Positions 1,744 through 53,262 of a DNA stretch of 64,000 nt are shown here, piece by piece. Numbering within the stretch: the first letter of the stretch is position 1; the number at the start of each line of letters is the position of its first letter. Below the pieces are notes generated by a model. It made no database searches. It was not told where the DNA came from and worked only from the letters and a program-made list of their open reading frames with translations. A program made the translations under genes and the position numbers. Source of the DNA: Pseudoxanthomonas suwonensis (GTDB taxonomy: Bacteria; Pseudomonadota; Gammaproteobacteria; Xanthomonadales; Xanthomonadaceae); assembly GCF_000972865.1 (NCBI RefSeq), contig NZ_CP011144.1:3531118-3595117 (forward strand). Reading direction: 5' to 3'.

Positions 1744-1766
1744 CCGCCTGGCGCCCGCACGGAACG

Positions 1767-1796
1767 AAGGCCGGCCCCGCGCCGGCCTTCTTTTTT
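1767..1796 (+). terminator. Rho-independent terminator after the glycine-zipper gene
   Basis: A perfect GC-rich stem (AAGGCCGGC / GCCGGCCTT) with a short loop is followed immediately by CTTTTTT. It sits 24 bases after the stop codon of the glycine-zipper gene. Confidence 0.9.
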
Positions 1797-1907
1797 GGTT
1801 CTTGACCCGTTTGGGGGAATGCGGCGCGACGGCTGGAAGCAGAGGCCAAAGCCAATGCCAATGCAACCGCAAGAGCGCCGGGGGTGGTCGGCTTCGGGCT
1901 GAGCCGC

Positions 1908-2006
1908 GGCAGTGCGGGTGTGTTGCGGTCGTCTCGACGGCACATCCCTGTGCCGACTCGCCGACGCGGCCATCCATGGCCGCTGCCGCAACACACCCGC
2001 ACTGCC
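1908..2006 (+). repeat. Structured palindrome family, copy A (99 nt)
   Basis: Two perfectly complementary 21-base arms (1908-1928 and 1986-2006) enclose two small hairpins: CGGCACA-TCCC-TGTGCCG and GCGGCCA-TCCA-TGGCCGC. Together they would fold as a three-way junction. The 5' flank contains GGCTTCGGGCTGAGCC and the 3' flank contains GGTCGTGGCTCCG; both are shared with other copies in the window (21633-21731, reverse copy 53164-53262, divergent 52813-52923). There is no plausible protein in it. Placement is between the glycine-zipper gene terminator and a REP pair. Confidence 0.85.
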
Positions 2007-2085
2007 ACGTCTTCGGGAACTTTGGGGTCGTGGCTCCGTTCCGGCGTCCCCAAGCAACAGCCGTCATTTTGCTGCCGCGCCGTTC

Positions 2086-2182
2086 TGTAGGAGCCGGGCT
2101 TGCCCGCGACGCGACGCCATTGGCACAGGCGACGCCCTCGTGATCCCGACGCCCGTGTCGCCGACTGAAGTCAGCTCCTACA
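2086..2182 (+). repeat. REP pair (REPIN), GTAGGAGC family
   Basis: Begins TGTAGGAGCCGGGCTTGCC and ends with the inverted partner GTCAGCTCCTACA, about 97 nt apart, the usual layout of two facing REP sequences. Each REP carries its own small hairpin (for example GGGCTTGCCC). The same unit recurs at 2209, 20153, 20274, 21803, 21923, 41989, 53007, 57467, 57587 and 57706. No REP-associated transposase gene is visible in the window. Confidence 0.88.
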
Positions 2183-17872: not shown

Positions 17873-19309
17873 ATGGACCACGCACGACGCTTGCGCCAGG
17901 AATCCACCGATGCCGAGGCCCGGTTGTGGGCGAGGCTGCGCAACCACCAGTTGGGAGCTAAGTTCCGTCGGCAGCACCGGGCTGAAGGGTTCATCCTCGA
18001 CTTTGCCTGCGTGGAGCAGTTGCTGGCGGTCGAGCTGGAAGGTGGGCAGCATCTGGAGCAGCAGTCCGCCGATGAAGAGCGTACGCGGCGATTGCAGGAC
18101 GCGGGTTGGCGGGTCGTGCGCTTCTGGAACGATGAGGTGCTGGTGCGTACGGACGAGGTGGTCGACGCGATCTGGCAGGCACTGCAAAAAGCGCCCCCTC
18201 ACCCCAGCCCTCTCCCCCGCAAGGGGGGGAGAGGGAGCCAGACGCAGGCTATGCAAGCCAAACAGGAGAGCCGGGGTTCTGCCCCCTCTCCCCCGCTTGC
18301 GGGGGAGAGGGCTGGGGTGAGGGGGAGCTCCTGGCCCCCCACCGCCGATATCGAAGCCCTCCGCCTCCGCGCCCGCCTCTACACCCTCATCCGCACCTTC
18401 TTCGCCGAACGCGGCGTGCTGGAAGTGGAAACGCCCGTGCTGTCGGAAGCCGGCAACACCGAGCCCAACATCGACAGCTTCACCACCCGCTTCAGCGGCC
18501 ACCGCGACGCCGGCGCGCCCGAGCGCTGGCTGCGCACCTCGCCCGAATACCCGCTCAAGCGCCTGCTCGCGGCCGGCATCGGCGACTGCTACGAACTGGG
18601 CCGGGTGTTCCGCAACGGCGAGGCCGGTGGCCGCCACAATCCCGAGTTCACCATGCTCGAGTGGTACCGGGTCGGCTGGGACCACCTTCGCCTGGCCGAC
18701 GAGACCGTGGCGCTGGTGCAGGACGCCCTGGCCCTGGCTGGGCGCCGCGCCGACGTGGTGTCGACGACCTACCGCGAACTGTTCCTGCACGCGGCCGGCG
18801 TCGATCCGTTCGCCGCCGATGATGCGCAGCTGCGGCAGCCGCTGGCCGGCATCGGCATCGACGGCGACGGGCTGTCGCGCGACGACTGGCTGGACCTGCT
18901 GATGACCCACCTCGTCCAGCCGCATTTCCCGGCCGACCGGATCACCGTCGTCCACGACTGGCCGGCCACGCAGTGCGCGCTGGCGAAGATCCGCGAGCCT
19001 GCGCAGGCCGGCGGCGCCCCGCCGGTGGCCGAACGCTTCGAGCTGTACCTGGGCGCGTTCGAACTGGCCAACGGCTACCACGAGCTGACCGACGCCCACG
19101 AACAGCGCCGGCGCTTCCTGCGCGACGGCCAGGTACGCGCCGGCCGCGGCGCCGTGCAGCCGCCGCTCGACGAGCGCCTGCTCGCGGCGTTGCAGTCGGG
19201 CCTGCCCGACTGCGCCGGCGTGGCCCTGGGCGTGGAGCGCCTGCTGATGGCCCTGGCCGGAACCGACCGGATCGCCGACGTGCTGGCCTTCGATTTCGGC
19301 TGCGCCTGA
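17873..19309 (+). CDS. epmA: DUF559 endonuclease-like domain joined in frame to EF-P lysyltransferase EpmA
   Basis: One uninterrupted 478-residue frame contains two unrelated parts. Residues 1-105 match DUF559 (restriction-endonuclease-like: ARRLRQESTDAEARLWARLRN, FILDFACVEQLLAVELEGGQH, RRLQDAGWRVVRFWNDEV). Residues about 150-478 are EpmA (PoxA/GenX), the class II lysyl-tRNA-synthetase paralogue that attaches beta-lysine to elongation factor P: motif 2 [19 protein letters not shown] and motif 3 GVALGVERLLMAL. The joint (about 109-148) is encoded by a palindromic intergenic repeat (18196-18323). EpmA alone could start at the in-frame GTG at 18317, which has GGGAGAGGG eight bases upstream and gives RGSSWPPTADIEALRLRARL, close to the normal EpmA start. 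So this is either a true fusion or two genes without a stop between. Confidence 0.8.
   Translation: MDHARRLRQESTDAEARLWARLRNHQLGAKFRRQHRAEGFILDFACVEQLLAVELEGGQHLEQQSADEERTRRLQDAGWRVVRFWNDEVLVRTDEVVDAIWQALQKAPPHPSPLPRKGGRGSQTQAMQAKQESRGSAPSPPLAGERAGVRGSSWPPTADIEALRLRARLYTLIRTFFAERGVLEVETPVLSEAGNTEPNIDSFTTRFSGHRDAGAPERWLRTSPEYPLKRLLAAGIGDCYELGRVFRNGEAGGRHNPEFTMLEWYRVGWDHLRLADETVALVQDALALAGRRADVVSTTYRELFLHAAGVDPFAADDAQLRQPLAGIGIDGDGLSRDDWLDLLMTHLVQPHFPADRITVVHDWPATQCALAKIREPAQAGGAPPVAERFELYLGAFELANGYHELTDAHEQRRRFLRDGQVRAGRGAVQPPLDERLLAALQSGLPDCAGVALGVERLLMALAGTDRIADVLAFDFGCA
18196..18323 (+). repeat. Palindromic repeat inside an open reading frame
   Basis: Arms of 23 bases (18196-18218, CCCTCACCCCAGCCCTCTCC..., and its perfect complement 18301-18323) each contain an internal hairpin of C-runs and G-runs. 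This is a common intergenic repeat type, but here it lies in frame and encodes PHPSPLPRKGGRG and PPLAGERAGVRG. It separates the DUF559 and EpmA coding parts and supplies the alternative EpmA ribosome-binding site and GTG start. Confidence 0.85.
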
Positions 19310-21632: not shown

Positions 21633-21731
21633 GGCAGTGCGGGTGTGTTGCGGTCGGCTCGACGGCACATCCGTGTGCCGACTCGCCGACGCGGCCATCC
21701 CTGGCCGCTGCCGCAACACACCCGCACTGCC
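21633..21731 (+). repeat. Structured palindrome family, copy B (99 nt)
   Basis: Same orientation and length as copy A. The two 21-base arms (21633-21653, 21711-21731) are identical to those of copy A and perfectly complementary. Inner hairpins are CGGCACA-TCCG-TGTGCCG and GCGGCCA-TCCC-TGGCCGC: the stems are kept while loop bases differ from copy A. Flanks GGCTTCGGGCTGAGCC and GGTCGTGGCTCCG are conserved. A leader resembling bases 1800-1875 (TTCTTG, then AACCGCAA) precedes it, so the repeat unit is longer than the hairpin. Confidence 0.85.
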
Positions 21732-37438: not shown

Positions 37439-37544
37439 GGAGCACGGCCATGCCCCTCGCGGGACACGCCGTGAATCCATCCATGGAGGCTCGACGGCGC
37501 CATCCATGGCGCCGACGGTCCCGCGAGGGGCATGGCCGCGCTCC
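37439..37544 (+). repeat. Structured palindrome family, copy E (106 nt, divergent arms)
   Basis: Arms of 26 bases (37439-37464 and 37519-37544; the left begins GGAGCACGGCCATGCCCC) pair at 25 of 26 positions. Between them lie TCCA-TCCA-TGGA and CTCGACGGCGCCA-TCCA-TGGCGCCGAC. The second inner hairpin matches the CTCGACGGC...ATCC...GCCGAC frame of copies A and B, whereas the arms are unrelated in sequence. It lies between pheA and aroA. Confidence 0.7.
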
Positions 37545-43869: not shown

Positions 43870-43959
43870 GGAGAGATGGCCGAGCGGTTTAAGGCACCGG
43901 TCTTGAAAACCGGCGTAGTGGCGACACTACCGTGGGTTCGAATCCCACTCTCTCCGCCA
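43870..43959 (+). tRNA. tRNA-Ser (anticodon UGA), CCA encoded
   Basis: A 90-nt class II tRNA: acceptor GGAGAGA pairs with TCTCTCC, the D arm is GCCGAGCGGTTTAAGGC, the anticodon stem-loop CCGGTCTTGAAAACCGG exposes TGA, the long variable arm is GTAGTGGCGACACTAC and the T arm is GTGGGTTCGAATCCCAC, followed by GCCA. It reads UCA/UCG-type serine codons. Its 3' end is copied again at 44109-44128. Confidence 0.95.
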
Positions 43960-44015
43960 CCCTGTTGAATGCAGGCGCTCCCAGTGCCGACGATGCTGTC
44001 GAGGGCAAGCGAACC

Positions 44016-44128
44016 GAGTGGGATTTGAACCCAAGGGTTCGACAAGCCGGCGCAGCCGGCCTGCGCGGCGAAGCCGCCCGAAGGGCAAGGCACCGCAGGT
44101 GCCGCAGCAATCCCACTCTCTCCGCCAC
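44016..44128 (+). repeat. tRNA-Ser 3'-end-derived multi-hairpin element (left copy)
   Basis: GAGTGGGATTTGAACCC (44016-44032) is an inverted, one-mismatch copy of the tRNA-Ser T arm, and AATCCCACTCTCTCCGCCAC (44109-44128) is an exact direct copy of the last 20 bases of the gene plus one. Between them are GAACCCAAGGGTTC, GCCGGC-GCA-GCCGGC, GCGGC-GAA-GCCGC and GGCACC-GCA-GGTGCC. The ends pair (GAGTGGGATT with AATCCCACTC), so the element can fold as a multi-branched structure. A related copy is at 46336-46427. Confidence 0.75.
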
Positions 44129-52812: not shown

Positions 52813-52923
52813 CCGCCGTGCCCAGGGGGGTCTGGCGCATCGCTCCGCTGCGGCGTCCTGCCTCCGAGTCGCGACCGCAGCACATCCCTGTGCTGCTTGC
52901 GCCAGACCCCCTGGGCACGGCGG
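52813..52923 (+). repeat. Structured palindrome family, copy D (111 nt, different arms, same flanks)
   Basis: Arms of 27 and 26 bases (52813-52839, starting CCGCCGTGCCCAGGGGGG; 52898-52923) pair along their full length with one bulged G, but share no sequence with the arms of copies A-C. The inner hairpin GCAGCACA-TCCC-TGTGCTGC (52877-52896) has the same GCACA-TCCC-TGTGC core as copy A. The flanks GCTTCGGCTGGGTC (before) and GGTCGTGGCTTCG (after) match those of A and B. It lies 240 bases from copy C. Confidence 0.8.
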
Positions 52924-53006
52924 CCTCGGGTGGCTTGTAGGTCGTGGCTTCGATAGGAAGAGCAACAGCAAAGGCAAAAGCACCCCTCCCAGACGGCACT
53001 GCCTTC

Positions 53007-53100
53007 TGTAGGAGCGGGCATGACCGCGACACGGGCGTCGGAATCACGAGGGTGTCGCCTGGGCCGACGGCGTCGGGTCGCGGTCATGCCCGCTCCTACA
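53007..53100 (+). repeat. REP pair (REPIN) between copies D and C
   Basis: Starts TGTAGGAGCGGGCATGACCGCG and ends GCGGTCATGCCCGCTCCTACA. The REP hairpin bases (GCGGGCATGACCGC) differ from the other REPINs while both ends remain complementary to each other. Confidence 0.85.
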
Positions 53101-53163
53101 AAAAGCTTTGCCCTGCTCATCGCCTGTGAACGGAGCCACGACCCCAAAGCTCCCCGAAGACGT

Positions 53164-53262
53164 GGCGGGCCGGGAGTATTGCGGCAGCGGCCATGGATGG
53201 CCGCGTCGGCGAGTCGGCACACGGATGTGCCGCCGAGACGACCGCAATACCCCCGGCCTGCC
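53164..53262 (-). repeat. Structured palindrome family, copy C (99 nt, inverted orientation)
   Basis: Same length as A and B but reversed. The arms (53164-53184, 53242-53262) read GGCAGGCCGGGGGTATTGCG... on the minus strand against GGCAGTGCGGGTGTGTTGCG... in A. About a third of arm positions changed, yet 20 of 21 pairs remain when one G-T wobble is counted. The inner hairpins CGGCACA-TCCG-TGTGCCG and GCGGCCA-TCCA-TGGCCGC and both flanks are conserved. Bases 53263-53432 beyond it hold a short stretch with GCAACCGCA, as in the leader of A, and no gene. Confidence 0.85.

Follow-up and report, generated by a model that had tools for sequence, protein, structure and literature searches.

A dispersed three-way-junction repeat in the Pseudoxanthomonas suwonensis genome

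The window, a 64,000-nt stretch of the P. suwonensis chromosome, contains three copies (A, B and C) of a palindromic repeat, each 99 nt long and each located where the earlier note had placed it. The positions of the copies, their hairpin tips and their neighbouring features are given in Table 1. The conserved left part of the unit around copy A (GGTTCTTG...) starts directly after the T run of the terminator-like stem of the upstream gene. All three copies can form the proposed three-way junction, in which an outer stem of 21 pairs encloses two short hairpins. The flanking sequences named in the earlier note are also conserved, and the unit extends beyond the hairpin.

Over the 99 nt, copies A and B differ at 3 positions, A and C at 11, and B and C at 12. 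The earlier estimate that about a third of the arm bases differ between A and C was too high, the actual count being 9 of 42 outer-arm bases (21%). In copy C, which is inverted, 20 of the 21 outer pairs stand as had been described, one of them as G-T, and the failing pair is A-C. A weaker fifth member in the window belongs to another class, with a different outer stem and core, and carries two CATGGATG tips.

Table 1. Copies of the repeat and associated features in the 64,000-nt window
Feature	Positions	Strand	Basis or remark
Copy A, three-way junction, 99 nt	1908..2006	GGA-tip strand -; strand of the earlier note +	sequence
Copy A, hairpin 1 tip CAGGGATG, RsmA/CsrA-type site	1943..1950	-	sequence; consensus as quoted in PMC7652899 and PMC6692469
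Copy A, hairpin 2 tip CATGGATG	1971..1978	-	sequence
Copy A, conserved left flank GGCTTCGGGCTGAGCC	1890..1905	+	corresponds to the outer, inverted end seen in paired units
Copy A, conserved right flank ACGTCTTCGGG ... GTCGTGGCTCCG	2007..2038	+	
Intrinsic terminator-like stem of the gene upstream of copy A	1766..1790	+	
GTAG-type REP doublet downstream of copy A	2087..2182		ordinary REP, separate repeat
Copy B, three-way junction, 99 nt	21633..21731	GGA strand -	
Copy B, tip CACGGATG	21668..21675	GGA strand -	
Copy B, tip CAGGGATG	21696..21703	GGA strand -	
Copy C, three-way junction, 99 nt	53164..53262	GGA strand +	left module of a paired unit
Copy C, tip CATGGATG	53192..53199	GGA strand +	
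Copy C, tip CACGGATG	53220..53227	GGA strand +	
Copy C unit, right module	52817..52919	GGA strand -	second, inverted three-way junction with a different outer stem
Copy C unit, right module tips CAGGGATG and CAGGACG		GGA strand -	
GTAG-type REP doublet between both modules of the copy C unit	53001..53106		
Weaker fifth member of another class	37447..37536	GGA strand -	46.3 bits

The repeat is not confined to the window. A 20-base core pattern with up to two mismatches finds 81 copies in the 3.89-Mb single contig of the genome, and all 81 were extracted and inspected. With up to three mismatches the same core gives 90 sites, against 12 for a reversed-pattern control. The genome carries at least 81 scattered copies of the palindromic repeat, far beyond chance. 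Three of the copies (L077, L087 and L089) have damaged outer stems because a common foreign stretch of more than 60 nt replaces part of the left arm.

Conservation of the fold within the genome and across the family

In a MAFFT alignment of all 81 copies (A1), 98.0% of 2812 cells pair in the three-way-junction structure, compared with 92.8% when partners are shuffled and 29-47% when they are slid. Both sides change in 13 of the 35 pairs, and none of 500 shuffles attains the observed value on any of five measures. The outer stems can be grouped into a small number of arm types, and most arms of each type face a partner that matches. A second alignment (A2) omits the eight copies with fewer than 17 of the 21 arm pairs in register, all of which remain in A1.

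Covariation also extends across the genus. A set of 34 rows (26 from relatives and 8 from the genome itself) shows change on both sides in 33 of 35 pairs, including all 21 outer pairs. Its covariation value is 0.616 against 0.158 for shuffled and at most 0.087 for slid partners, in an alignment that leans towards the model because its rows were aligned with that model. Alignment A4 retains one row on the wrong strand (L091, minus). Compensatory change at both levels supports the earlier proposal of selection on, or templated copying of, a folded strand.

Covariance models were used at two levels, the genus and the Xanthomonadaceae. Model R1 matches 15 of 17 genomes of the genus, our own included (E <= 0.001); 42 of its 65 matches were kept after removal of opposite-strand second readings and of locus L199, a copy of L180. 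Model R2 places the family in at least 34 of 198 Xanthomonadaceae genomes and at least 13 of 54 genera, the home genus included (E <= 1e-5). These counts are lower bounds, because the filters were strict and 20 candidates were scored per genome. Two of the 24 loci of the family search (L240 and L250) lie at contig ends and are too short to read. At E <= 0.01, R2 also identifies relatives in Stenotrophomonas that have a different outer stem and lie directly behind the same zinc-transporter gene as that beside copy C. The closest named relatives of the zinc-transporter protein at site C are from Pseudoxanthomonas, the best being P. kaohsiungensis at 91% identity. A record titled Bacillus subtilis (L128, JAHREJ010000018.1) holds a zinc-transporter gene 77% identical to that of the window, placed among Stenotrophomonas and Xanthomonas matches, and is probably mislabelled or contaminated. 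The RNase P RNA gene has an element for a neighbour in two genomes (L178 and L251), at no more than about 300 and 70 nt.

At gathering score, no Rfam family matches the repeat in the 64-kb window or in 20 relatives. The earlier note had recognised no named family, and the Rfam match that it listed as a refutation did not appear. Membership of an Rfam family was rejected on these grounds, all matches being below threshold (RsmV, for example, scores 13.6 bits against a required 100). Carriage by a plasmid or phage was also rejected, as collections of both gave no match to the 181-nt region of copy A at E 1e-5.

Two GGA hairpin tips on the opposite strand

On the strand opposite to that described in the earlier note, the TCCN loops read NGGA and each inner hairpin ends in CA-N-GGA-TG. 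The complete hairpins are GGCACA-N-GGATGTGCC for hairpin 1 and GGCCA-N-GGATGGCC for hairpin 2. The binding site of CsrA/RsmA is given as RUACARGGAUGU with invariant ACA and GGA, and the hairpin-loop repeat of CsrB as CAGGA(U/A/C)G (PMC7652899); the RsmA/CsrA consensus is also quoted as (A/U)CANGGANG(U/A) (PMC6692469). As read from their sequence, both inner hairpin tips match this published site, and their variation fits it base by base. Of the 81 copies, 73 could be aligned in register, and all 73 have T, C and C at the three loop-1 positions that read GGA on the other strand. The neighbouring N is C in 24 copies, A in 17, G in 31 and T in 1, and three or more of these bases occur within each of the four most frequent arm types. 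This position is the third most variable of 172 alignment columns and the most variable within the 99-nt element. Loop 2 behaves similarly, with T in 73 copies, the first C in 73 and the second in 70 of 73, and an N that is A in 35, C in 36 and T in 2.

Both tips are present in 75 of the 81 copies and one tip in the other six. Two tips are also found in 38 of the 42 elements of the genus (one tip in the remaining 4) and in every one of the 22 elements from the family search that could be read; in these 22, no tip occurs on the other strand. The resulting total of 60 out of 64 relatives arises partly by selection, because these relatives were found with models that contain the tips. For this reason we also listed palindromes without any model (arms of at least 14 nt separated by 35-75 nt), covering the window and 80 loci that had been retrieved through a protein. 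Of the 40 palindromes obtained, 10 have at least two tips on one strand, 2 have tips on both strands, 6 have one tip and 22 have none. The tipless group includes all five palindromes with GTAG-type ends, a further GTAG-REP doublet, other repeats, and chance-like palindromes within genes.

The tips persist while their surroundings are replaced. Across the 60 two-tip relatives, the two tips are carried on 11 and 19 distinct fully paired 4-bp stems, and these stems are fully paired in 59 and 44 of the 60, respectively. The first 15 positions of the arm exist in 55 distinct forms among the 64 relatives' elements. Some Stenotrophomonas members (L143, L112 and L165 at 3345), which account for part of the six one-tip palindromes, have a changed second tip, and tips therefore decay in some copies. 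The distance from GGA to GGA is 28 nt in all 75 two-tip copies of the genome and 26-30 nt in all 60 two-tip relatives. This spacing falls inside the range over which a CsrA dimer is reported to bridge two sites (10-63 nt, best above 18 nt; PMC7652899). In sequence, the element has what is expected of a sequestering RNA, namely at least two GGA hairpin tips that fit the CsrA consensus. The structured RNA that was among the options of the earlier note gains from these two predicted RsmA/CsrA-type tips, which lie on the opposite strand and had been overlooked.

A paired, MITE-like unit and the search for a mover

In relatives, the three-way junction can form one half of a larger unit. Fourteen such units consist of two inverted modules, 92-520 nt apart, around a variable middle. 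Their outer ends are close to GCGCYGGCTTCGGNNNGAGCCGC and its inverse, and their inner ends to CGTCYTCGG...GTCGTGGCTTCG and its inverse. A second, inverted module lies downstream of 33 of the 81 copies in our genome, and 31 of these 33 are of the GTATTG arm type. The GGA strands of paired units point outward, and open frames run through the unit. In our genome a start resembling GGTTCTTGGCC could be placed in 50 copies if up to three mismatches were allowed, many of them perhaps by chance, and in 19 copies with at most one mismatch; in 8 of the 19, four consecutive T occur within the 12 nt ahead of it. The start of a GTAG REP lies within 250 nt of 75 of the 81 copies. CGTC-tagged REPs were considered because CGTC follows the hairpin, and were dropped, as those repeats have stems of 8-9 bp.

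Site C shows how presence of the unit varies between lineages. The own-type core was found between the two flanking genes in none of 80 named relatives, a count that leaves out loose core matches outside the zinc-transporter gap (L140 at 423 and L153 at 2026). P. kaohsiungensis has a different paired unit at this site, and in several other Pseudoxanthomonas the two genes are separated by only about 16-40 nt. Read from these sequences, presence at site C appears lineage-specific, as expected of a mobile unit. The element combines inverted ends with dispersed copies, as MITEs do.

We searched for a mover among Y1 transposases. None of 25 Y1-transposase loci in 17 Pseudoxanthomonas genomes (two of the loci in our own) carries the element by models R1 and R2, and none of 17 loci in four Stenotrophomonas maltophilia records does so by model R2. 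Palindromes with two tips gave the same result for the Y1 loci (0 of 40). The single R1 hit (L216, 32.5 bits), which had appeared promising, is a GTAG-REP doublet. An assignment to RAYT or TIRYT elements was rejected, as 0 of 42 Y1 loci from our genome, the genus and S. maltophilia carry the element. The non-autonomous mobile element suggested in the earlier note is supported by the lineage-specific presence at site C and the inverted terminal modules, but none of these 42 loci carries the element.

These observations could be explained by a DNA signal with no need of an RNA function. The modules would be the folded ends of a non-autonomous MITE-like transposon, their TCCN/NGGA loops would be read on single-stranded DNA by a transposase, and compensatory change would keep the ends foldable and the unit mobile. 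We regard this reading as unlikely, though it is the strongest of the alternatives. It accounts for the inverted modules and inverted outer ends of the 14 paired units, for near-identical copies such as A and B at unrelated sites, and for the pattern at site C. Elements that move on the lagging strand can be co-directional with the replication fork, and 57 of the 81 copies are so oriented while 24 are not (p 3e-4, with dnaA at 1,926,251 taken as the origin). Against this stand the 42 Y1 loci, none of them with the element, and a 290-aa frame, in the one 0.9-kb middle that was examined (that of a distant unit), which matches no Pfam family. The fork bias is also absent in convergent contexts (16:13 of 29), and targeting of the replication fork is not claimed. 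Moreover, a DNA signal does not by itself predict the match to an RsmA site, including which base is free. A sequence-specific binder of DNA hairpins would leave the same loop pattern.

The element resembles several known repeats and can be distinguished from each. GTAG REPs and REPtrons (SMAG) are likewise dispersed palindromes at gene ends, but are described as short hairpins of 20-40 bp that bear a GTAG tag and in many cases are associated with a RAYT (PMC3733652), whereas the present element has a 99-nt branched fold, no GTAG at its ends and no linked Y1 transposase. The TIR repeats of S. maltophilia TIRYT transposases are long, partly self-complementary, dispersed and often close together (PMC3733652). 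They are defined by a flanking Y1 transposase, and the element is separated from them by its absence from the 42 Y1 loci examined. MITEs such as RUP, NEMIS and ERIC are also short, lack an evident gene, have inverted ends and are dispersed beside genes (PMC3733652). The ends of the present element differ in being predicted three-way junctions with RsmA-type tips.

Several further repeats were seen. Runs of GCAACC/GCAACG hexamers lie just outside the left end of many units (for example L042, L093, L191 and L181), and related inverse hexamer runs lie outside the right end of some relatives' units. Another repeat, a palindrome with 46-nt arms of CCCTCTCCC type, occupies positions 18190-18329 of the window, and the middles of units L185, L190 and L206 contain sequence that resembles it. 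A palindrome at 43930-44036 of the window overlaps the tRNA at 43870-43956; its right arm repeats a tRNA 3' end in inverted form and may be another tRNA-like piece or the remnant of an integration site. The second Y1 transposase of the genome (L095, 2,490,086-2,490,418) is bordered by a different repeat, GGGGTCAGGTTCATTTTC. Copies of the element are scarcer near the origin across the 81 in the genome.

Gene context and the choice of strand

Several measures bear on which strand might be transcribed. In each of the three sets, the GGA strand has the lower mean predicted RNA folding energy. Wobble pairs favour the GGA strand in the genus (73:26) and, slightly, in the family (23:20), and are reversed in our own genome (45:83), a reversal that we think reflects one fixed pair at the junction. 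Within the 21 outer pairs, wobble cells favour the GGA strand by 33:8, with about equal numbers of positions. A strand call from wobble pairs was dropped, as the sets disagree. We found no sigma-70-like promoter near copy A or copy C. Gene direction gives no preference for the GGA strand of left modules: of 78 contexts in our genome, 58 have a left-hand gene that reads the TCC strand of the module, and 48 have a right-hand gene that reads the GGA strand. A right module was found for just 33 of the 81 copies.

Gene contexts were assigned with our own codon model and are uncurated. By these calls, 29 of the 81 copies lie between convergent genes, 26 and 17 in the two tandem arrangements and 3 between divergent genes, with 6 lacking a call on one side. 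A gene call runs across the hairpin in 11 of the 81, where the frames are possibly spurious. For the nucleoid or termination signal listed in the earlier note, the one observation in favour is this location at gene 3' ends.

The same location could indicate a REP-like stabiliser of 3' ends or a transcription boundary, the long hairpin protecting mRNA 3' ends or separating convergent genes. We consider this improbable. The 70 copies with no gene call across the hairpin are what such a role would favour, 29 being convergent, 26 and 12 tandem and only 3 divergent by the uncurated calls, and the upstream stop codon lies at a median of 164.5 nt before the hairpin in 58 copies. Copy A, however, already sits behind a terminator-like stem with a T run, and a stabiliser leaves unexplained the fixed GGA beside a free N, the spacing of the two tips and the branched form of the hairpin. 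Least probable of all is that the repeat has no function, template switching during replication having recopied one arm onto the other and the copies being debris of repeat spread: many variants within the genome have a change on one side only, and the main arm types repeatedly show perfect pairs of arms, but template switching predicts neither a loop with one free and three fixed bases across many genera nor a constant spacing between two loops.

Putative dispersed RsmA decoys as the preferred explanation

RsmA/CsrA governs metabolism, motility, biofilm formation and virulence-related traits in many gammaproteobacteria and is restrained by decoy RNAs. Our genome has one csrA gene above the Pfam cut-off. 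Compared with five solved CsrA-type chains, its protein reaches 93.5-94.9 bits, and 86 bits with 2jpp; it keeps L4 and R44, which are described as critical for RNA binding (PMC7652899). The genome has no match to the CsrB or PrrB/RsmZ models. The RsmY model gives a weak match at 1,469,940-1,470,049 on the minus strand (25.8 bits against a gathering score of 57, E 4.3e-4), which is not among the 81 copies. According to the report on RsmU, classical decoys have no significant homologue in any sequenced Xanthomonas, and RsmU itself is found only there (PMC7694677).

At the level of sequence, the element has conserved and covarying pairing, a pair of CA(N)GGA(N)G tips that lie on one strand at a spacing of 26-30 nt, a free N beside a fixed GGA and inverted paired modules, in a genome with an intact csrA. 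The explanation that we prefer, which we judge to fall just short of an even chance, is a predicted three-way-junction module with transposon-like spread, whose opposite-strand RNA would present two predicted RsmA/CsrA sites and act as a scattered decoy. A small transposon-like unit would spread the module through the genome. The GGA strand would then be transcribed, either by a transcript that starts within the unit and runs outward or by one that reads through from a convergent gene next to it, and RsmA would bind the resulting RNA. A single CsrA/RsmA dimer could bridge both tips of one module, and the copies together would titrate RsmA. The same binding might instead have a different outcome, namely local control of the mRNA whose 3' end holds the module.

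We place this reading no higher than about even, with the DNA signal second, because gene direction does not favour the GGA strand, no sigma-70-like promoter was found near copies A and C, the wobble counts disagree and a DNA-binding protein could use the same loop pattern. The published work on RsmU lowers it slightly further. When all four GGA motifs of RsmU were changed, RsmA still bound in vitro, in a smaller complex, and the overexpression phenotype was kept (PMC7694677). GGA tips are therefore not the whole of RsmA binding in Xanthomonadaceae. In addition, the tip hairpins of the element have about seven contiguous pairs, compared with mostly four or fewer in CsrA hairpins selected by SELEX (PMC7652899).

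A scattered decoy of this kind would have both precedents and differences among known RNAs. CsrB/RsmB and RsmX/Y/Z also display CA(N)GGA(N)G tips on hairpins, with several per cell spaced for the CsrA dimer, but are encoded by one or a few genes, CsrB having 22 GGA motifs (PMC7652899). The element instead has two predicted sites per module, at least 81 dispersed copies, a transposon-like unit and no Rfam match. RsmU (sRX061) of Xanthomonas campestris is a Xanthomonadaceae RNA with GGA motifs, as the element would be; it derives from a 3' untranslated region, binds RsmA and is not homologous to the classical decoys (PMC7694677). As described, it is a single locus restricted to Xanthomonas with GGA motifs that are dispensable for RsmA binding in vitro (PMC7694677), whereas the element is multi-copy and present in other genera.

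A broader form of the decoy reading is more doubtful, and we put it forward tentatively. A mobile family may have scattered an RsmA decoy chromosome-wide, so that dozens to a hundred transposon-borne double hairpins soak up RsmA in Xanthomonadaceae without CsrB/RsmZ-type genes. These would take the place of the small number of dedicated decoys in other gammaproteobacteria, and would extend RsmA control to every 3' end in which they insert. The components, CsrA-site hairpins and MITE-like repeats, are known. A literature search of titles and the opening parts of abstracts, with subscription journals mostly outside its reach, returned no published report that combines them in a dispersed repeat with paired CsrA-type tips and dozens of copies. 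If the family binds RsmA, it provides candidate decoys in 13 genera of Xanthomonadaceae and bears on the question of what antagonises RsmA in these bacteria. It would then also be an example of a protein sponge made from a dispersed, mobile repeat.

Downstream of csrA itself, at a distance of about 400 nt and after a tRNA-Ser (GCT) gene, the genome has one of the copies (L011, 3,197,467-3,198,180). This position could be due to chance; it would also allow feedback on the regulator's own transcript.
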